Source of the DNA: Atherix ibis
Lineage: Eukaryota; Arthropoda; Insecta; Diptera; Athericidae
Length of the DNA stretch: 64,000 nt
Assembly: GCA_958298945.1 (NCBI GenBank)
Contig: OY282610.1
Location: forward strand, 24,886,233 to 24,950,232
Reading direction: 5' to 3'
How positions within the stretch are numbered: position 1 is the first letter of the stretch; each line of letters opens with the position of its first letter. The position numbers and the translations under genes are program-made. Under the pieces are notes generated by a model. The model saw only the letters and a program-made list of their open reading frames with translations. It did no database searches and had not been told where the DNA came from. Of the stretch, positions 1 to 58,108 are shown in pieces.

Positions 1-316
1 GAGTGTAGTTGGGGGATGCCAGTATCCATTGGCGATGTTAAATATGAACACTCATGACGATATGGATTCCCATGGCAATGTGGCAACTCATCCCGGTGCA
101 GATGTCACTATTGATAGTCGCCTGTGTCAATACCTTCTGATTGTACATTGCCACCCGCTGGTAGCCCTAGCCACAGCGGATGATACCATTGCCGATGCTG
201 TTACCGTTTCCATACCTATTGCCGATGTGTGTCGATGTGGCGTCCCATTTCATCTTTACAGTAAGATCCGCAATACATTTCTAGTTCGCTTTGTGCTCGT
301 ATTTTTGCCATCATGA
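1..316 (+). other. GC-rich exon-like island at the window edge
   Basis: This stretch is close to 50% GC while the next several kilobases are far more AT-rich. The plus strand is open for about 95 codons from the ATG at 29. The encoded peptide has no motif I recognise. It is not obviously compositionally trivial, but the DNA repeats the motif ATTGCCGATG (around 34, 190 and 218), which suggests an imperfect internal repeat rather than ordinary coding sequence. The minus strand is open only in shorter pieces. It could be the edge of a host exon or the GC-rich part of a decayed repeat. No start context, splice pair or homologue could be fixed. Confidence 0.25.
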
Positions 317-2230
317 AATTAAAATATTGCATTTATTTATTTATAAACTGCTACAAAATATCTTCAAAAACTAAAAATATAGCATTTTCGAATGCTCGAA
401 GCTAAGGGAAAAGAAACACATTTGCTGATGCATGGCAATATCGCCACGTCCATATCGTACAATAACTAAAAAGTGGGGGCACTTTCTGTCTATTGGGTTC
501 TGTTCGTACATTATTCGGTGCCCGCCCTGACCAGGAGTGCTGCCATCAAAATGGAAATTTTTTTGGCGCGTGCAGATAAATTTTGTACAAATGCCGGCGC
601 ACATATGGACAAATAGAAATGTGTTCTTGGCGAAAAATGCCGGCATGCCAAATGGATAGACTCACACACAAATGCTTTGCCGGGGGATCTGGTGCCAGTA
701 ATACTAGCGCGAATCGAATGCAGCCAATTCGGCTAAAACACATTTTATCTTCTAATCAAATTCTCCCCGTTTTCAGATTAAATTCTTTCTTCGGGTACCG
801 ATTTATGTGCACCTCACAATTTACTTTTTGCTCCCTTCTCCGGCAAAAACACGTTATTCTCTTTAATCTTTTTTCTTTCATTTAGTTTTTAAGACACTTT
901 GTACTCTTGTTTCTATCTTTTCTTCTTTTTCTTCTTTGTAGTAGCAAAAGATGAGATTTTACCTACCAACTTCTTGGCCTCCCAGCCTGATTACTGTTTC
1001 CTATTATCATCTCCCCTATGCCTAATATGTACACGTATATCAGACGATTTATATTTATGGCTTGTTCTTTTCGTTCACCCCCTTCTGCTGATACATAAGA
1101 CGCCAGCACTAGCTAAATTTATTCAAACTGAAATTCCGCAATAGAAATTTTTTTTTCTTTAACTTTTATGTTGTGTAGTGTCGGAAGATCTAAAAATTGA
1201 TTTTCATGTCTCGTGGTTAGCAGCTAATGTTTAGATAAATCTAAATATTGAATTTTTCCTAATTTTCTATATTTTGTTTTTTGTATATAGTTTTTCGGGG
1301 CAGGGTTTTTTTGTTTTTCGGGGAAGCAGATGTATTTAAAATGTCTCATGAAAATGTGGATATTTTTTTTTTCTTTACTATACACTATTTGGTTAATGAG
1401 TTTTACGAAATAGATAACTTTTTCGAAAAATCTGCATCCCAAAAGTAATGATATGTAATGGACCGCAAACGTTTTATTCTCTTTTGTAGAAGTTTTCTGA
1501 AAAATTGTCCAAAAGTGAATACTTTTTATTTCGATTATTTCTGAATATAGAACAGATTCTGCAGGAAAGGGAGGATTTTTTTTCCCATACAGCATCTCAT
1601 CTGGAATTGAGCCGATTGGTATTGAGCTGAAGTGATTATTCCTGGGACAATTTTTCTCTAAATGCTAATGGAAAATTCTCCTGAAGTATTTATTATCCAC
1701 AATTGCAAATTTGTTGTTTTCGTTTTGTTTTTAAATTGAATAAAATTTTAACAACAGCAAATTGATCTTAACGATGGTATTTATTTATGCTTAAAAATAT
1801 GTAAAAATTTCGGATGATAATTGAGTCGATGTTTTTGTCCAATTTTTTTTTAAATACTTTTTTTTTTAACATAAGAAAAATCTAATTTTGATAAATAAAA
1901 AACAATTTTGATCGAGAAAAAAACCAACAAAACTGCACAAATATTTGCAATAATTTTTATGGAAAAGTTTGTTTTCTTCAAACATATTTTTATTTTTGTT
2001 TCAAAAGTTTTCAAATGTTTTTTTGTTTTGTTTAAAGAGTAGTTTAGCTATAGGAGGAGAGGGTTGAAAAAAATATTCTAAGTCCAAACGTGCCGAAGTT
2101 GCTGAATAGTTGGTTAATTTTTTTTGATATTCGGTGGTTTTTTTGTGTGCTTATTATAAAGTGGTTATTTTTGAAAGCCAATGCATGGGGCTTTAATACA
2201 CTAAGATCACCTTGCTAGAATACATTTCTA
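317..2230. other. AT-rich non-coding stretch, no gene seen
   Basis: Between 371 and 900 the composition is moderate and there are overlapping short open frames on both strands, none of which resembles a known protein. From 900 onward it is low-complexity A/T sequence with many homopolymer runs. I see no RNA gene, TIR or tandem array. Confidence 0.5.
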
Positions 2231-2236
2231 TGTTTC

Positions 2237-2475
2237 CTTGATATAAAGTATCGCGAATTTTGTTGGTACACATGTCTCTCACTTATGCCGACAAGTTCGG
2301 CCATTTTGAATGTTCAGTTAATTGTTGACAGCTGCTTTGCTTGCGCGTGTTTTGGCTCGTCTTCGATTTTTTGCCCATTAAAAATGGCCGAACTTGTCGG
2401 CATTAATGAGAGACATGAGTACCAACATAACGCCACGGAAATTCGAAATTTCACATACTTTTTGAGCAGACCTCA
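2237..2475. mobile_element. Mariner-derived fold-back MITE
   Basis: A non-autonomous derivative of the mariner family found at 6678, 14763, 49522 and 57368. Both ends are related to that family's 5' end. The left arm (about 2255-2307) and right arm (about 2380-2440) are inverted copies of the block that begins GTTGGTACtCATGTCTCTCA and runs to GACAAGTTCGGCCATTTT. The spacer is only about 70 bases of the same 5' leader. The right end matches the family TIR (ACTTTTTGAGCAGACCTCA) followed by TA. The left TIR is eroded. It encodes no transposase and would have needed the enzyme in trans. Confidence 0.8.
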
Positions 2476-2559
2476 TATTTTCGTGGGCTAGGAATTGACC
2501 GGTATCACCACTCTGTTGGATTTGTAATGCCGTCCTGCGTCCTGCTCATATAGCCGATG

Positions 2560-3940
2560 TTAATTAAGGACTATTGTCACGAAGATATCGATAGTCTCCT
2601 AACCCGCCTGCAAGTCCAACATCTAGTTCATGGTGTTTTCTGGCATCTGGGGTCTGTCAACAAACTTTTGATTTTCCACTTCGGAATCAAATGCAGTAAA
2701 ACTTCGGAATCAAATGCAGTAAAATACGACGTTCTGCGCTCTCTATCACCCAGTCACAATAAGAGTACATTAGGCTTATACCAAAAGATGTATTATCACG
2801 TTAACAATATGGATTCTTTTAATATTTTGGATGAACACCTTAGCCATTCGTCCGCTAAGATTTTGATCGGTCTGATTCTCACAACAACACATATGGCCTC
2901 GTGTGACACTGTGCGGAATATGTAAGCTTCCCTAAACAGTCACCTTTGCTTAGGCGGATACATCTTACGTTTGCAGGTTGCTTGATTTATAGGGAATAGA
3001 GTAATACCAACCTGGCATTACTCTACATTAAGGTCCTCCTAATTTGTCTAGGTCCCTCTATGTTCATAACTAACCCTAACAGTACTATCGTTACTTACTG
3101 ATTTTTCCTATATTTATAAAAGTGGTCCTGAAATCGCAGCCTTACGTCAATTATTACTCCCATACTGTACTTCCTACTTGTGATTAACAGTCCCTCTTTG
3201 CCACCATTAATAAAGCAACGGTTCTCGTATTCGCAGGGACATGAATCTTGAGCATTCCATTATACATTATATTTTACAATAGAGGGCGCAAGATGAAGCT
3301 TCATGTGCAGTACTAAGGACTAGATTAATAGCATCCAAAGTGGAGCGAGCCCTCCTGAAGCCATATAGACTTTCAGATAAGTCCATATGCTTTCGGGTGT
3401 ATTCCTCCAATCGGTCGCATAAAATACGCTTGAGGATTTTTTCACCGCGTCCGGAAGATAAATAGGTGGTAGGATGAAGTGCCTTCGAGTCCCTTCGTAA
3501 GTAGTGCATGGCCTCGTATCTTCGAAATGTTGCCTCTTTTAAATATATATTAAATACCTGCAAAAATAAATTTCTACAACACCACCCCCCCCCCACCCCA
3601 CAAGAGCTCATCCTCGGTAATATTTGGAATCTTCTCCTTATCAGATGTCGAGCCTCTCCTTGAATATAGCTACCGGTTGTTGGGAAAATAATTTGATGAT
3701 AATTCTGTTCAGAAGGCCAGGGCATGTATGAGCCGCCCTTGGAGAACCTTTCAGTCTTTACATGACTGTGCTATATGTCCTACCTCATATGTCGTTATTG
3801 ACTCTACTACATAGTTTCCTCCAACATAAGCATCTCCTCTTCTTGATAGATCATTCCAACTGTCTTCTTGCTACCTTATGCTGCTGGGACAGCAAAAGGT
3901 GCTGAGGTTTACTCCTGGAGCGTAGGCTCAGTCTTTTTTT
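2560..3940 (-). pseudogene. R1-type non-LTR retrotransposon fragment (RT region)
   Basis: Read on the minus strand from about 3930, the translation gives the pre-RT segment typical of R1 elements (WRKLC..VNNDIWGR.Y.TVM.RLKG, then AHTCP.LLNRII). The RT start follows around 3450-3300 (GEKILKRILCDRLEEYT, then YGFRRARSTLDAI). A gap removes the catalytic core. The post-RT segment resumes near 3190 (GVIIDVRLRFQDH, then a region like GPRQTRRTLM) and continues to about 2870. Several frameshifts and stops show it is dead. A C-rich run at 3582-3600 lies within it. R1-clade elements are typical of arthropods, which supports the host assignment. An exact 23-bp tandem duplication lies at 2678-2723. Confidence 0.75.
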
Positions 3941-6677: not shown

Positions 6678-7482
6678 CGAGGTCTGTTGAAAAAGTATCG
6701 TGAATTTTCGAATTTCCGCGAGTTACGTATATTCGATTTCCGATTTTTTTTGTAGCGTTATGTTGGTACTCATGTCTCTCACTTATGCTGACAAGTTCAG
6801 CCATTTAAAGGAGCTATTGGACTCTGTTCGCGATGACCCAAATTTGCTCCAGAGGGTCATAACTGGTGACGAATCATGGGTTTATGGTTATGACGTGGAA
6901 ACCAAAGCTCAATCATCCCAATGGAAGCTGCTGCACGAGCCAAGACCAAAAAAAGTGCGCCAAGTTCGGTCGATTGTGAAGGTTTTGCTTACAGTTTTAT
7001 TCGATTGCAGGGGCGTGGTGCATCATGAGTTCTTGCCACAGGGTAGAACGGTCAATAAGGAATATTAACTGCAAGTTATGCGCAAGTTCCGCGAAGCAAT
7101 CCGCCAGAAACACCCGGATTTGTGGAAGAACAAAAATTGGCTTTTGGCATTTTTGGCTAAAAACAACACATTAATAATGCCGCAGCCATTGTATTTCTCA
7201 TATCCGCCCCCCTGTGACTTTTTCTTGTTCCTGAAACTGAAGAGCCCCATGAAAGGATGACACTATGCTAAGATTGAGGAGATAAAGACGGCATCGAAGG
7301 AGGAGCTGAACAAGATCACAAAAAATGATTTTTTGAAGTACTTCGAGGATTGGCAAAAACGTTGGCATAAGTGTATAATATCTGGTGGGGATTACTTTGA
7401 AGGGGACAAAATAGATATTCATGAATAAATAAATAATTTTTGAAAAAACAGAAAATTCGCGATACTTTTTGAACAGACCTCG
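6678..7482 (+). mobile_element. Mariner element, internally deleted
   Basis: The termini are inverted repeats (CGAGGTCTGTTgAAAAAGTAT at the left; its complement ends at 7482) flanked by TA (6676-6677 and 7483-7484), the mariner target duplication. The plus strand encodes a transposase relic: LLDSVRDDPNLLQRVITGDESWVYGYD carries the first catalytic Asp, followed by VETKAQSSQWK, VHHEFLPQGRTVNKEY and CDFFLF (third catalytic Asp). The N-terminal helix-turn-helix half is absent. An in-frame stop lies at 7066. The segment that would hold the second Asp (HHDNAPAH...REF) is cleanly missing near 7145. The C-terminal tail to YFEGDKIDIHE is preserved to about 7427. It cannot be autonomous. Confidence 0.9.
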
Positions 7483-31489: not shown

Positions 31490-32258
31490 CTTCTTTGATT
31501 TCCTGCTTGGACAACTTCATGCGTGCAACATTCTATTAGGTTCCCTCCTTTTCTTCTTCTTCTTCTAATTCTTCATCTTCTTCATTTAACTTCTTCATCT
31601 TCTGCATCTTCCTCATCGTCGTCATTTTCTTCAGCTTCTTCATCTTCTTCCTATTCTTCAACTTCATTTTCTTCATCGTTTTCGTCTTCTTCGTTTTCTT
31701 CCTTTTCTTCATCTTCATCTGCTTCATCTTCTTAATCTTCTCGATTTTCTTCATCTGCTTCCTCGTCTTCATCTTCATCTTCTTCATCTTCTTCCTATTC
31801 TTCACTTTCTTCTTCTTCATCTTCTTTAGCTTCTTTATCTTCTTCATCTTCTTCATCTTCCTCATTTTCTTCATCTTCTTCATCTTCTTCTGTTCTTCAT
31901 CTTCATCTTCTTCATTTTTTCATATTCTTGATCTTCTTCTTCTTCATTTGCTTCATCTTCTTTCTATTCTTCTTCTACTTCATCCTTTTCCTATTCTTCA
32001 TTTTCTTCACTTTCTTCAGCTTCTTCTTATTCTTCTTCTTCTTCATCTTCTTCTTCTTCTTCGTATTAATTACTTTTCGTTAGCAGCAAGCCCTTCCTAC
32101 ACCTCTACTATCATTTGCAGTGATAGCACCCAGAATCCAGCCAACCCTCAGCTTCAGTCCTTTGGAGACAACTACAGATACACACGTTTCAGCCAAAGGC
32201 TCCTCAGCTTGACCGGGCATAGCGGATGAACCACCGTGGGGCTCCCAAGATAATTTCC
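31490..32258 (-). repeat. Dispersed repeat A copy with internal TTCATC array
   Basis: The order is the reverse of the copy at 8640. It opens with the flank CTTCATGCGTGCAACATTCT and GGTTCCC, then the array, then TTTGCAGTGATAGCACCC, CAGCTTCAGTCCTTTGGAG, ACGTTTCAGCCAAAGGCTCC and GCGGATGAACCACCGTGGGG. The matching flanks show that the microsatellite is an internal part of the mobile repeat and not an independent expansion. No coding capacity. Confidence 0.65.
31548..32066. repeat. TTC / TTCATC microsatellite array
   Basis: About 520 bases of CTTCTTCATCTT-type units with point interruptions. All frames translate as low-complexity Ser, Leu/His or Lys/Met runs, so the open frames here are not genes. 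Confidence 0.95.
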
Positions 32259-38034: not shown

Positions 38035-38900
38035 AACCATGGGCTAAGACTACTAAGGTAAGTCGTCAAGTTCAAAAGAGGCACTTCCAACACCAGAACG
38101 GGCCGAAGAATTGCCATGTGTAAAGTAAGTTGTCATGTGCCAAAGCGGCAGTTCCAAAGTTGGAACGAGCCGAAGAAGTGCTAAACGTAAAGTAAGTCGT
38201 TAAGTACAAAAGGGGCACTTTTAATACCAGAATGGGCCGAAGAAGTGCCAAGCGTAAAATAAGTTGTCAAGTACAAAAGGGGCACTTCCAACATCAAAAC
38301 GGGCTGAAGAAGTGCCAAGCGTAAAGTAAGTTGCCAAGTGCAAAAGGGGCACTTCCAACACCAGAACGGGCCGAAGAAGTGCCAAGCGTAAAGTAAGTTG
38401 TCATGTGCCAAAGGGGCAGTTCCAAAGTTAGAACGAGCCGAAGAAGTGCTAAACGTACAGTAAGTCGTTAAGTACAAAAGGGGCACTTTTAATACCAGAA
38501 TGGGCCGGAGAAGTGCCAAGCGTAAAATAAGTTGTCAAGTACAAAAGGGGCACTTCCAACATCAAAACGGGCTGAAGAAGTGCCAAGCGTAAAGTAAGTT
38601 GCCAAGTGCAAAAGGGGCACATCCAACACCAGAACGGGCCGAAGAAGTGCCAAGCGTAAAGTAAGTTGTCAAGTTCAAAAGGGACACTTCCAACATCAAA
38701 ACGGGCTGAAGAAGTGCCAAGCGTAAAGTAAGTCCTCAAGTGCAAAAGGGCCACTTCCAATATTAGAATGGGCCGAAGAAGTGACAAGCATAAACTAAGT
38801 CCTCAAGTGCAAAAGGGGCAGTTTCAATATCAGAACGGGCCAAAGAAGTGCCAAAGTAAGTCATCAAGTACGAAAGAGGCACTTCCAACACCATAGTGCC
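38035..38900. repeat. 67-bp satellite array with 268-bp higher-order period
   Basis: Thirteen or so units of about 67 bp, each containing GGGCCGAAGAAGTGCCAAGC, GTAAAGTAAGTtGtCAAGTg and CAAAAGGGGCACTTCCAAC. The unit type changes along the array. A block of four units starting near 38155 recurs exactly 268 bases later, with the same variants (AAGTTGGAACGAGCC, TTTTAATACCAGAATGGGCC, ATCAAAACGGGCTG). Hence two identical 112-codon minus-strand open frames at 38181-38519 and 38449-38787. These frames are by-products of the array: 67 is not a multiple of three, so the reading frame rotates from unit to unit. Confidence 0.95.
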
Positions 38901-45548: not shown

Positions 45549-45563
45549 AAAATCTTTTTAATT
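45549..45563. repeat. Target-site duplication of the RTE-like LINE, 3' copy
   Basis: AAAATCTTTTTAATT, identical to 47741-47755. The two copies define the element boundaries. Confidence 0.85.
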
Positions 45564-45622
45564 TTTTATTTGACAGGTTTTTTATTTCTATGTTACACAT
45601 AGACATGAGAACACAGTCACTC

Positions 45623-47494
45623 CTATGGAGCATATAGCGGCACTAGAGCCTCTGTGAACTCTCTCCATCTGCTTCTGTCTTGAGCCAGCCTTTTTACTTC
45701 CGACCATGATTTGCCAGTTTGTTGGTGTTCGCGCTCGACTGATCTTCTCCAAGTGGTCCTTGGACGTCCTCTGCTGCGATTGCCCTGTGGGTTCCAATCT
45801 AGCGCCATCCTTGCTATGTCCATAGGTGGTTTTCGCAAGGTGTGGCCAATCCAACTCCATTTCCTGCGTTTGATGTTATCTAGCAGGGGTATTTGCTTCG
45901 TGAGAAGTAACACCTCATCGTTCGTTATCCAGTTTGGCCAGAAGAACTTGCTTATACGCCTCAAGCATCTGTTCACAAATGCCTGAGGCTTACGAGTCGT
46001 GCTGTCTGTTACTTTCCATGTTTCGCAGCCGTACAGTAGGACTGGCTTGACGTTTGAGTTGAATATTCGAAGTTTGAGTGCTATGGAGAGATGATTGGAA
46101 CGCCATACGTTCCCAAGTGAGGTGTACGCTTGTCGCGCCTTGTTGATGCGCGTTTGGATGTCTATTTCAGTTCCACCATCCTTGCTGAGCATGCTGCCAA
46201 GGTAACAGAACTTTTCGACATCTTCAACTTGGGTAAGTGGTGGCAGTGAGGGTGTTATATTTCCGGATAGTTTTCGAATTGATGCATAGACACTGCAGAT
46301 ATCGCTCCGGTGTGCAGCGGCTTCTGCTTCGCTCGCTATTTCGTTGAAGTAGTTCCTCTTGTCATCCCTTGCCATGCGTTTGACCATCTTTTGAGCAAGG
46401 TCGTACCTCGTCTGTAGATGGTGCCTTTCCTCGCGAGTTTGAGCAGTTTGGAGTAGACCTTTCAGCTTTCTTCGTTTTCTCTTGTAGTTCCGAAAGCCCG
46501 TTGCTTCCTCTGCAGCGGACTTTAGTTTGCCCAGTAGAGAAGGCCATGCCAGCCTTTCGGCATTGTGGCTAACTTCCTCCAGCTTGTTCGCAAATAACTC
46601 GGCTGTCTCTGGATTCTGCAGACGTTGGATGTCGTGCCTGCGTTCTGCGCGATCTTGTTGTTTCTTGGTTGCCGCAGGCCTTAGTCTGACCACCCCAAGT
46701 AACAGCTGATGGTCGCTGTATATGTCAGCTCCTCGGATTGTCTTGACGTCCAGGAGCGATCCGAGGAATTTTTTGCTTATTAGGATGTGGTCTATCTGGT
46801 TGCGGGTCACGCGATCCGGAGACTGTCAGGTGTATTTGTGGATGTTCTTGTGAGGAAACTTGGTGCCACCAATGAATAGTTGATGAGTTGAGCAGAGGTC
46901 AGTGAGACGGTTCCCGTTGTCATTTCCCTCTGCATGAAGGCTGTGTGTTCCAATGATCGAGCGAAGATCAGTGTTATCCCGGCCTATTTTAGCGTTAAAG
47001 TCGCCCATTACAATTTTGATGTCGCTCTTTGGGGCAGATTGAATGCACGTCTCTAATTGGTGGTAGAAGGCTTCTTTATTGGCGTCATCATCTACTTCAG
47101 TTGGGGCATAGCATTGCACGATGGTGATGTTTCGGAACTTCGAGCGGAACCTGGCTGTCAGAGGGCGGTCGGAGACCGGTTTGTAGCCCATGAGAGATCT
47201 CTTTGCGTTGGCTGATAGGATTAATCCGACTCCACAGTGGTGCCCACTGTCGTTGCCGCTGTAGATGAAGTGCTCACCCGTCTGCGTTGCGAGGAATCCT
47301 TGATGTTTCCATCTTGTTTCGGAGATTCCCAGTATGTCGAGATTGTAGCGTCGCATTTCGGAAGTAGCTTGCGCCAGACGAGAAGTTTGGGAGAGAGTTC
47401 GCACGTTCCAGGTACCTATTCGGGTTGTTCGGTGAAAGCCAAATGTCGTTTTGCCTGAGGTGTTGTCCGGATGATTACTCTTGTGCTGTTTCAT
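45623..47494 (-). pseudogene. RTE-like endonuclease/reverse transcriptase ORF, RT core deleted, one nonsense codon
   Basis: The ATG at 47494 opens a frame that runs to 45623 with a single TGA at 46828-46826, where relatives usually have Trp (HKYTW). Residues 20-220 form the endonuclease: RIGTWNVRTL, LDILGISETRW (catalytic Glu), VQCYAPTEVD, IVMGDFNAKIG, then QIDHILIS and SDHQLLLG. A basic, helical linker follows (RNYKRKRRKLKGL). At about 46235 the sequence jumps from SGNITPSLPPL to VEDVEKFCYLGSM, so the whole RT palm with its YxDD motif is missing, in frame. The C-terminal domain is intact, with VLLYGCETWKVT, RCLRRISKFFWPNWITN, RRKWSWIGHTLRK and RSRGRPRTTWRR, a basic nucleic-acid-binding stretch. 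Confidence 0.9.
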
Positions 47495-47601
47495 GATAAG
47501 ATATTTTCTTATGGCTTGCGGCTTATCAGGGACCCTACGGACTACATATGTAAGGCTTGTAGTCGGCCTCTCACCCCGGCACCAATGCCGAAATGGCGGC
47601 A

Positions 47602-47618
47602 GCGGGAATCGAACCCGC
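47602..47618 (-). promoter_or_regulatory. tRNA T-arm with perfect polymerase III B box
   Basis: On the minus strand GCGGG-TTCGATT-CCCGC forms a five-pair stem and seven-base loop. The embedded GGTTCGATTCC (47605-47615) matches the B-box consensus. It lies ten bases after the end of the 5S-like segment. No complete tRNA fold surrounds it. Confidence 0.85.
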
Positions 47619-47625
47619 TACCTAC

Positions 47626-47738
47626 CTGCGACATGCGGTTTTCCAAGTGGTCACCCATCCGAGTACTAACCACGCCCAGTCCTGCTTAACTTCGGTGATC
47701 TGACGAGAACCGGTGGATCCAGGATGGCACGGTCGCAG
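47626..47738 (-). ncRNA. 5S rRNA-derived head of the LINE
   Basis: This 113-base minus-strand segment aligns along its whole length with animal 5S rRNA. It shows ACCGGTTCTCGTC, GATCACCGAAGTTAAGCA, GGGCGTGGTTAGTAC and CGGATGGGTGACCACTTGG in the right order and spacing. Its ends, CTGCGAC and GTCGCAG, pair perfectly, so the terminal helix of 5S rRNA is retained although its bases differ from those I know in insect 5S. The positions of the internal control region (A box, intermediate element, C box) are all present. It is not an ordinary 5S gene: it lacks a T-run terminator and continues into the LINE. Its probable role is as an internal polymerase III promoter that would start transcription at the element's first base. 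Confidence 0.9.
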
Positions 47739-47740
47739 AT

Positions 47741-47755
47741 AAAATCTTTTTAATT
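47741..47755. repeat. Target-site duplication of the RTE-like LINE, 5' copy
   Basis: AAAATCTTTTTAATT, matching 45549-45563 exactly and starting two bases outside the 5S-like segment. Confidence 0.85.
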
Positions 47756-49521: not shown

Positions 49522-50399
49522 CGAGGTCTGTTCAAAAAGTATCGCAAATTTTGAATTTCCGCGGGTTATGTATTTTCGATTTTTTGTGGCGTTATGTTGG
49601 TACTCATGTCTTCGGCCATTTTGAATGTTCAGTTAATTTTTGACAGCTACTTTGCCTGCACGTGTTTTGGCTCGTCTTCGATTTTTGCCCATTCCAAAAA
49701 ATGGATCAAAGATTCTGTTTCGGGAATAAGAAAAAGTCAGTGGAGGCCAGATCTGGGGAATACGGTGGATGCGGCATTATTAGTGTGTTGGTTTTGGCCA
49801 AAAATTCGCGCACAAGCAACGATGCGTGAGCAGGGGCGTTATCATGGTGCAAAAGACAATTTTTGTTCTTCCGCAAATCCGGGCGTTTCTGGCGGATAAC
49901 TTGCAGGTAATATTCCTTATTGATCGTTCTACCATGTGGCAAGAATTCATGGTGCACTACACCCCTGAAATCGAACAAAACTGTAAGCAAAACCTTCACA
50001 TTCGACCGAACTTGGCGCGCTTTTTTCGGTTTTCGCACGTGCGGCAGCTTTCATTGGGATGATTAAACTTTAGTTTCCACGTCATAACCACAAACCCATG
50101 ATTCGCCATTAGTTATGACCTTCTAGAGCGAATTTGGGTCGTCGCGGACTTAGTTCAACAGCTACTTAGCAATGTTAATGTGATGCTGTTTTTGGTCGAA
50201 AATGGGCAAAAATCGAAGACGAGCCAAAACACGTGCAAGCAAAGCAGCTGTCAAAAATTAACTGAACATTCCAAATGGCCGAACTTGTCAGCATAAGTGA
50301 AAGACATGAGTACTAATATAACGCTATAAAAAAACTGAAAATCGAATATACGTAACCAGCGAAAATTCAAAATTCGCAATACTTTTTCAACAGACCTCG
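49522..50399 (-). mobile_element. Mariner derivative with 5' ends at both termini
   Basis: Both ends carry the same roughly 175-base 5' region in inverted orientation: the TIR CGAGGTCTGTTCAAAAAGTA, GTTGGTACTCATGTCT, GGCCATTTTGAATGTTCAG, and ACGTGTTTTGGCTCGTCTTC. TA flanks both sides (49520-49521 and 50400-50401). Between them the minus strand carries a transposase fragment: VKVLLTVLFDFRGVVHHEFLPH, CLLHHDNAPAHASLLVREF with the second catalytic Asp, and YSPDLASTDFFLF with the third. The fragment stops just after FLFPK, where the inverted 5' end begins. The normal 3' end and the N-terminal half are absent, so this is a non-autonomous rearranged form. Confidence 0.9.
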
Positions 50400-56439: not shown

Positions 56440-57365
56440 CATTAGTGTAATGTTATTTAACGTGGCTTACTTATCGTTAGACATAATCCCACGGCTCGCC
56501 TACGACCTCAGGGATTTAGATACGCCCAAACAAGAAGCAAAACAGACCTGTTCAGTAATGGATTTCCCCAGCTCAGCTTTATCGACCCAATCCGCTTGAG
56601 TCAAACGCTTTCATCTTTTATTTCTTGCTTAGAACACTTCATGCATGGAACATTCTCTCAGGTTCCCACTTTTTTGCTTTTCTTCTTCTTTTTCTTCAAT
56701 TCCTTCTTTACCTTCTTCATCTTTTTCATCTTCTTCATCTTCTTCATCTTCTTCATTTTCTTCATCTTCTTCATCTTCTTCATCTTATTTATCTTTTTCG
56801 TCTCCTTCATCTTTTTCATCTTCTTCATCTTTTTCATCTTCTTCGTCTTCTTCATCTTCTTCATCTTCTTCATTTTCTTCATTTTCTTCATGTTCTTCAT
56901 CTTCTTCATCTTCTTCATCTTCTTCATCTTCTTCATCTTATTCATTTTCTTGATCTTATTTATCTTCTTCATCTTATTTATCTTTTTCGTCTCCTTCATC
57001 TTTTTCATCTTCTTCATCTTTTTCATCTTCTTCATCTTTTTCATCTTCTTCGTCTTCTTCATCTTCTTCATCTTTTTCATCTTCTTCATCTTCTTCATCT
57101 TCTTCATCCTCTTCATCTTCTTCATCTTCTTCATCTTATTCATTTTCTTCATCTTATTTATCTTCTTCATCTTATTTATCTTTTTCGTCTTCTTCATCTT
57201 TTTCATCTTCTTCATCTTTTTCATCTTCTTCGTCTTCTTCATCTTCTTCATCTTTTTCATCTTCTTCATCTTCTTTATCTTCTTCATCTTCTTCATCTTC
57301 TTCATCTTCTTCATCTTATTCATTTTCTTCATCTTATTTATCTTTTTCGTCTTCTTCTTCTTCTA
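56440..57365 (-). repeat. Dispersed repeat A copy ending in a TTCATC array
   Basis: The terminal blocks GTAATGTTATTTAACGTGGC and CACGGCTCGCCTACGACC match the inverse of 9170-9250. CTTCATGCATGGAACATTCT and GGTTCCC match the copy at 31520. The array then runs directly into a mariner copy, so the other half of repeat A is missing. Confidence 0.7.
56672..57365. repeat. TTC / TTCATC microsatellite array
   Basis: About 690 bases of CTTCATCTT-type units with a secondary pattern (TTATTTATCTTTTTCGTC recurs at 56787, 56975 and 57172). This shows larger blocks of about 190 bases duplicated inside the array. All open frames across it are low-complexity artefacts. Confidence 0.95.
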
Positions 57366-58108
57366 TATTGGTACTCATATCTCTTACTTATGCCGACAAG
57401 TTTGGCCATTTTGAATGTTCAGTTAATTTTTGACAGCTGCTTTGCTTGCACGTGTTTTGGCTCGTCTTCGGTTTTTGCCTATTCCAAAATATCTGTTTCG
57501 GGAACAAGAAAAAGTCACAGTGGCTCAGATCTAGGGGAATACAATGGCTGCGACATTATTGGTGTGTTAGTTTTAGCCAAAAATTCGCGCATAAGCAACG
57601 ATGCGTGAGCAGGGGCGTAATCATGGTGTAAAAGACAATTTTTGTTCTTCCACAAATCCGGGCGTTTCTTGCGAATAACTTGCAGGTAATATTCCTTATT
57701 GACCGTTCTACCCTGTGGTAAGAACTCATGGTATACCACACCCCTGTAATCGAAGAAAACTGTAAGCAAAACCTTCACGTTCGACCGAACTTGGCGCGCT
57801 TTTTTCGGTCTTGGCTCGTGGGCCAGCTTCCATTGGGATGATTGAGCTTTGGTTTCCACGTCTTAATCATAAACCCATGATTCGTCATTAGTTATGACTC
57901 TGTGGATCAAATTTGGGTCGTCGCGAACAGAGTCCAACAGCTACTTAGCAATGTTAATGCGATGCTGTTTTTGGTCGAAAATGGGCAAAAATCGAAGACG
58001 AGGCAAAACACGTGCAAGCAAAGCAGTTGTCAAAAATTAACTGAACATTCAAAATGGCCGAACTTGTCGGTATTTTCAAAATTCGCGATACTTCTTGAAC
58101 AGACCTCG
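57366..58108 (-). mobile_element. Mariner derivative with inverted 5' ends, left end cut
   Basis: The left side starts inside the 5' leader (TTGGTACTCATATCTCT) straight after the hexanucleotide array, without TIR or TA. The right end has the TIR (GAACAGACCTCG, then TA). The minus strand carries METKAQSSQWKLAHEPRPKK, VVYHEFLPQGRTVNKEYYLQ and CLLHHDYAPAHASLL (second Asp kept). The junction to the inverted 5' end (ATTCCAAAA then TCTGTTTCGGGAA) is the same as in the copy at 49522, so both descend from one rearranged progenitor. The right 5' leader has lost an internal piece near 58068. Confidence 0.9.

Follow-up and report, generated by a model that had tools for sequence, protein, structure and literature searches.

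The window, i.e. the whole 64,000-nucleotide stretch of Atherix ibis DNA analysed here, contains a 2177-nt element on the minus strand whose first base lies at 47740. The element is enclosed by an exact 15-bp direct repeat, AAAATCTTTTTAATT, with one copy on the LINE 3' end side (45549-45563) and the other on the 5' end side (47741-47755); the repeat is absent from the rest of the window on both strands. When the two flanks (100 and 50 nt) were Markov-shuffled, a shared word of 15 was never obtained (0/5000 shuffles; maximum 12), which argues against a chance repeat and upholds the target-site duplication proposed in the initial annotation of this DNA. Read along the minus strand, the 5S rRNA-derived head (47623-47740) is followed by a tRNA T-arm with B box (47602-47618), the remaining 5' UTR from the T-arm to the ORF (47495-47601, without ~30 nt that are found in locus L048 and in the short copies described below) and a single reading frame that runs from 47494 to 45623 and is interrupted once, by an in-frame TGA at 46828-46826. 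The N-terminal part of this ORF (46235-47494) contains the endonuclease domain (PF03372), and the C-terminal part (45623-46234), delimited by the ORF, a domain match and comparison with relatives, contains DUF6451 and the C-terminal region; the element closes with a 3' UTR and A-rich end (45564-45622), recognised from the sequence and from relatives with similar 3' ends. A domain search of the window ORF found no reverse transcriptase match, and comparison with loci L001, L002, L034, L041, L047 and L048 showed that the reverse transcriptase core, ~1.05 kb, is missing at one junction near 46235/46234. The window copy is a defective member of an RTE-type LINE family from which this core has been deleted; the endonuclease, DUF6451 and single frame agree with the RTE-like LINE first described here, for which the missing core went unmentioned. 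Elsewhere in the window there are ORFs that, from their motifs, we take to be pieces of mariner transposase (6700-7068 on the plus strand, 49706-50038 and 57515-57859 on the minus strand), a 67-bp minisatellite with a longer period of 268 bp (38054-38893), and 9-bp TTC/TCA-rich arrays giving long low-complexity ORFs (31551-32062 and 56681-57364).

The start of the element matches the complete Rfam 5S rRNA model (RF00001, model positions 1-120) from 47740 to 47623 on the minus strand, with 98.2 bits against a gathering score of 38. A 5S sequence therefore does begin the element as initially annotated, although its length is 118 nt by Rfam and not 113. The T-arm, GCGGG-TTCGATT-CCCGC (47618 to 47602; 5-bp stem, 7-nt loop, B box at 47605-47615), is perfect, as had been claimed, and begins 4 nt past the Rfam 5S end, the spacing of 10 bases given earlier depending on where the 5S part was taken to stop. 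A fragment of the Rfam tmRNA model also matches this site (17 bits, under its gathering score), and ARAGORN found no tRNA anywhere in the window; the tRNA likeness of the window head is limited to the T-arm/B box, with no A box established. The T-arm hairpin is present in the predicted fold of the head. Four related loci were scored with RF00001, giving 103.6 bits each for L041, L048 and the short copy L016, and 99.8 bits for L034. The 5S fold is kept in L041 and L048, with two non-standard pairs.

We searched the 670-Mb genome for coding copies, the query being most of that part of the window ORF which lies 3' of the endonuclease. This gave 1198 first-look candidates, 40 of which were scored; in this and all other genome searches, numbers of first-look candidates are not numbers of confirmed copies. 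Thirty loci were cut out: the window copy itself, nine that continue upstream of the reverse transcriptase region, one (L051) that is internally joined, and 19 with no upstream match within the locus. In L051, element position 562 is joined to 1506, i.e. there is another internal deletion, so internal deletion recurs in the LINE family. In seven of the nine loci that continue upstream the match runs to the locus end; in L035 and L045 it breaks off at element positions 1387 and 1262. Tracing the 5' ends of these seven showed that three, L041, L048 and L034, begin with the first base of the 5S (L034 has a G there and so matches from base 2), one (L047) matches from 5S base 16 at an odd junction, and three (L040, L055 and L057) are 5'-truncated at 538, 858 and 731 respectively. 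The first 15 bases of L047 are replaced by letters seemingly complementary to part of its 5' flank, perhaps through a strand switch at integration. In L041 the duplicated flank is separated from 5S base 1 by six bases.

Among the four long copies examined (L034, L041, L047 and L048), L034 and L048 contain an uninterrupted 987-aa ORF encoding endonuclease and reverse transcriptase (EN-RT), the frame of L041 ends after 693 aa and that of L047 after 278, and all four have an AATAAA-containing, A-rich 3' end. In the L048 protein, of which 957 aa were searched (as L070), PF03372, PF00078 and PF20049 were matched, i.e. it combines endonuclease and reverse transcriptase in a single ORF. The best 120 of 338 related proteins are 39-63% identical to it, with named sources that include Musca, Choristoneura, Lutzomyia, Schistosoma, Littorina, Batillaria and Erpetoichthys; the Schistosoma proteins have 40-41% identity.

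A search of the same genome with the head region gave 1214 first-look candidates, of which 40 were scored (41 rows), with 100% identity for the window and 93-99% for the other rows. In 38 of the 41 rows the match ends at query position 232, ~212 nt into the element, where the window copy misses ~30 nt; the starts of these 38 range from 15 nt upstream of 5S base 1 to 2 nt downstream of it, those upstream extending into the flank. Twenty head-picked places were fetched with their flanks, and all 20 proved to be short elements of 798-835 bp that consist of LINE nt 1-740 and 3217-3300 of L048 (to 738 in one; from 2 in three; from 3222 in two). Seventeen match from 5S base 1; the other three have T, T or G at this base and match from base 2. 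Their 5' flanks differ, except for L024 and L025, which share theirs and are therefore probably one insertion that was duplicated. Three short-element heads also lie in the same orientation within ~4.3 kb (L006, L007; G000:C2:54019763-54024034), perhaps through local duplication. The short copies and the LINE have in common the first 462 nt of the coding region (to nt 740). Median identity between L048 and the 20 short copies is 100% for the 5S, 100% for the T-arm, 99.3% for the rest of the 5' UTR and 97.7% for the coding part, and because these copies were picked by their head, its high identity is not readable as selection on the head. The 3' tail of the short copies is ~81-82% like that of L048, compared with 95-98% for the 5' part, and with such low identity the tail may derive from a sister LINE. 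This ~820-bp bipartite derivative is apparently abundant in the genome.

These results support part of what the initial annotation had inferred. It had asked whether most full-length copies start at the first base of the head, as L041, L048, L034 (with its G) and the short copies do, and it had named other copies without the head as the observation that would speak against it; L034, L041, L048 and the short copies carry the head. It had also suggested looking for short elements that unite this head with the tail of the LINE, and of these the headed short copies exist, with a tail that resembles the L048 tail only to the extent given above.

A second sample was not chosen by its head. With the 3' junction of a short copy as the query, 1668 first-look candidates were obtained. 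Forty of them were scored (41 rows), and among the 40 full-length junction rows 13 were already in the head list; 18 of the other 27 were fetched around the expected 5' end. Since the 13 rows in the head list were excluded, complete heads are, if anything, under-represented in this sample. Five of the 18 copies match from base 1-2, three from base 3, four from base 9-14 and three from base 94-129 (two of which share flanks), and in the remaining three there is no head within the fetched stretch; most of the 5S is present in 12. The 5' flanks differ, L074 and L075 apart. These starts fit target-primed reverse transcription of an RNA that begins at or near base 1, with ordinary 5' truncation. 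We also compared the 5' flank of each element with its own 3' region. At least 9 nt were shared in 18 of 25 elements (20 short, four long and the window copy) versus 13 of 600 mismatched flank pairs, which indicates that the mobile unit spans the first base of the 5S to the A-rich 3' end. Target-site duplications and frequent 5' truncation, both of which characterise the RTE clade, were found. As the head is present in the coding 3.3-kb copies and in the short copies, it belongs to the LINE family. The genome contains a coding RTE-type LINE family with a 5S rRNA and B-box head, plus a bipartite derivative of it.

The reading that we favour, and consider reasonably probable, is that the window holds a defective copy of this 5S/B-box-headed RTE-type LINE family and that the head is a putative internal Pol III promoter with its start at 5S +1. 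The head would act through the 5S-type boxes A, IE and C, perhaps aided by the B box. RNA would start at the first base of the element, so that each insertion would bring its own promoter, and this RNA, or one made by Pol II from that site, would be translated. By target-primed reverse transcription, EN-RT would then copy both the LINE RNA and the short derivative. The head itself was probably captured once, by a template switch or by recombination with 5S RNA or a 5S-headed SINE. Counted against the promoter reading are the three of the 18 junction-picked copies without a head and the three with only its end, as well as the negative ARAGORN result and the fold of the whole 247-nt leader, which is little better than that of shuffles.

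We used the frequency of TTTT, the Pol III terminator, to assess this reading. The sense strand contains no TTTT in the window copy (2177 nt; 14 antisense) or in any of the 20 short copies (4-6 antisense). Each of the four 3.3-kb copies has a single sense TTTT, at nt 773 (772 in L047), and 18-21 on the antisense strand. The sense strand of the LINE is T-poor, so this scarcity is largely as expected. Synonymous-codon shuffles predicted 2.8 TTTT for the window ORF (P 0.02) and 3.7-3.8 for L034 and L048 versus the one observed (P 0.06). In L001, used as a control, there were 8 sense TTTT versus 10.2 expected; on the antisense strand, for which there is no Pol III reason, there were 13 versus 24.6 expected (0/2000 shuffles), and because this deficit is far stronger the TTTT test is unclean. 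The case for a strong TTTT depletion was weakened by the TTTT that each coding copy does contain, by the codon shuffles and by the antisense result in L001. Sense-strand TTTT scarcity therefore supports a Pol III promoter weakly. Pol III transcripts are normally uncapped and poorly translated, and translating a Pol III transcript is the main difficulty of the Pol III reading; the A-rich, AATAAA-containing 3' ends of the four long copies would equally suit Pol II. We take the overall evidence as favouring a Pol III promoter.

The same observations enter into an alternative that we regard as unlikely, in which the head is a passenger: a single template switch would have fused a 5S-bearing RNA to the LINE, Pol II signals would lie in or near the head, and the 5S would have no promoter role. 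The AATAAA-containing A-rich ends and the unclean control of the weak TTTT shortage would suit such an origin, and 5S/LINE-1 chimeras do occur in mammals, according to the part of PMC13174262 available. However, the mammalian chimeras are typically antisense and truncated in that account, whereas the 5S described here is complete and in the sense orientation, keeps its fold apart from the two non-standard pairs of L041 and L048, and starts coding and short copies alike.

Improbable too, in our view, is the reverse order of events, in which recombination gave the coding LINE the head of a 5S/tRNA SINE or of its own short derivative, i.e. the short element was the donor. A published model in which bipartite RTE derivatives gain small-RNA heads (PMC7245038, available in part) provides a precedent, and the lower similarity to L048 of the short-copy tail than of the 5' part is in keeping with it; against it, the 462 nt of LINE coding region in the short copies are not expected in an independent SINE.

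We give a rather low probability to the head acting mainly as RNA, with a 5S-like fold that would bind ribosomal protein L5, TFIIIA or ribosomes and would aid export, stability or access to nascent LINE protein, like the Alu domain via SRP9/14; a comparable function of the Alu domain is described in the accessible part of PMC7245038. The nearly intact 5S fold is consistent with such a role, and the 151-nt head is predicted to fold better than most of its shuffles (z -2.25, equalled by 5 of 200), but for the whole 247-nt leader the advantage is slight (z -1.33). Moreover, the promoter boxes lie inside the same fold, so its conservation does not separate the two roles, and an RNA role is compatible with the promoter role. 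A single fusion of a 5S retrocopy with a LINE, confined to the window copy and of a kind that exists for LINE-1 (PMC13174262, available portion), was rejected with hardly any residual probability, because L034, L041, L048 and the short copies have the same head and start.

Returning to the Pol III promoter reading, a second RTE-like LINE, L002, has a tRNA-like head. It has an Rfam tRNA match at nt 58-130 (30.8 bits; gathering 29), no tRNA by ARAGORN with the bacterial code, and an intact 988-aa ORF (nt 304-3270). Its sense strand contains no TTTT in 3213 nt, where codon shuffling gives 2.0 expected (P 0.11). No target-site duplication was identified for L002. The contig is filed under a Breoghania MAG and is probably eukaryotic contamination; the 5' flank of the LINE resembles what we presume, from a motif, to be a Gypsy fragment. 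Beside a match resembling a Type-P1 twister (L002:5959-6026, minus strand; 42 bits, below the gathering score of 67.2; 5' end cut off), a second LINE ORF begins on the same strand. L001 has neither a 5S nor a tRNA match, but its 5' end may extend past its contig. Ahead of this RTE-like LINE lies a perfect 41-nt inverted repeat with 32 nt between the arms (L001:1-114), which may be an assembly artefact.

Viral contigs yielded no relatives with the EN protein, the EN alignment, the EN-RT alignment or the head DNA pattern as query. The head DNA pattern gave 0 matches in the genome contig collection, the antisense ORF of the head gave none as a protein query, and no match was found in phages. The plasmid search returned three records, two of which are group II intron reverse transcriptases. 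The third, NZ_CP104070.1 (L003/L004), contains an RTE-like LINE fragment at which the PLSDB table enters no gene. This record is classed as a plasmid of Alicyclobacillus and carries catA1 and an IncFIA replicon; it is perhaps a cloning vector with a eukaryotic insert and was set aside.

In its overall organisation the family resembles the RTE-clade LINEs, e.g. BovB and the Schistosoma RTE, in having one ORF with endonuclease, reverse transcriptase and DUF6451, a length of ~3.3 kb, short UTRs, target-site duplications and internally deleted bipartite derivatives, and differs from them in that its 5' end is a complete 5S rRNA with a B box. Some RTEs carry HDV-like ribozymes at the 5' end. AmnSINE1 is a vertebrate SINE with a 5S part followed by a tRNA part; the order is the same here, but of the tRNA part only the T-arm/B box was found, and the element encodes EN-RT. 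SINE bodies have reportedly been derived from RTE 5' regions (Kojima 2018).

A 5S-derived, Pol III-type head, seen here in the RF00001 match, is shared with SINE3, HaSE3, PxSE4 and PxSE5, which unlike the present LINE are short SINEs with heads diverged from 5S. As described in the available part of PMC3272025, the 5S-headed SINE HaSE3 (Helicoverpa) has its body and tail in common with a tRNA-headed SINE and is partnered by an RTE. PxSE4 and PxSE5 resemble HaSE3, their heads are ~63% identical to Bombyx 5S, and PxSE5 has a LINE tail (PMC8010984, portion available). Where SINE3 is defined by having no coding capacity, the ~820-bp derivative is a deleted LINE that retains part of the ORF and has coding relatives of 987 aa. 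It is of the same type as the bipartite non-autonomous RTEs, having RTE 5' and 3' ends joined with the middle lost. Such elements are common and some gain tRNA or 5S heads, which in the published model join the RTE after internal deletion (PMC7245038, same portion); here, in contrast, the undeleted coding LINE is already headed. SINEs with an RTE 5' end as promoter include MAR4, RTESINE1, RTE1-N1_LA and Bov-A2 (Table 1 of PMC3747384, seen in part). Capture of a 5S-derived promoter by a retrotransposon is also known from Cassandra and Ajax, which are non-autonomous LTR elements with the 5S in the LTR (PMC10886601, likewise in part). No coding LINE with a 5S head was found in the literature searched, which lay outside Repbase and most subscription papers, where one may be known, and the accessible sections of PMC13295347 and PMC9191728 contain no mention of a 5S-headed LINE.

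More generally, we tentatively suggest, as a possibility to which we would not yet commit ourselves, that some RTE-type LINEs are protein-coding Pol III units with their own small-RNA 5' end (5S and B box here, tRNA in L002), which would make RNA from their first base and avoid terminators over ~3.3 kb of sense strand. Internal deletion would turn such LINEs into ready-headed SINE-like families, and some SINE heads would thus come from LINEs and not be added later. The finding touches two open questions, the retention of a promoter by LINEs from one round of copying to the next and the origin of SINE heads. This genome, which contains both a coding LINE headed by a complete 5S and its headed short derivative, offers a direct case for working out the order of head capture, deletion and amplification. 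If the LINE RNA is made by Pol III, translation of 987 aa from such a transcript would be required, a very unusual situation. The head probably gives each new copy of the LINE its own on-switch, and it hints at the origin of short 5S-headed elements.
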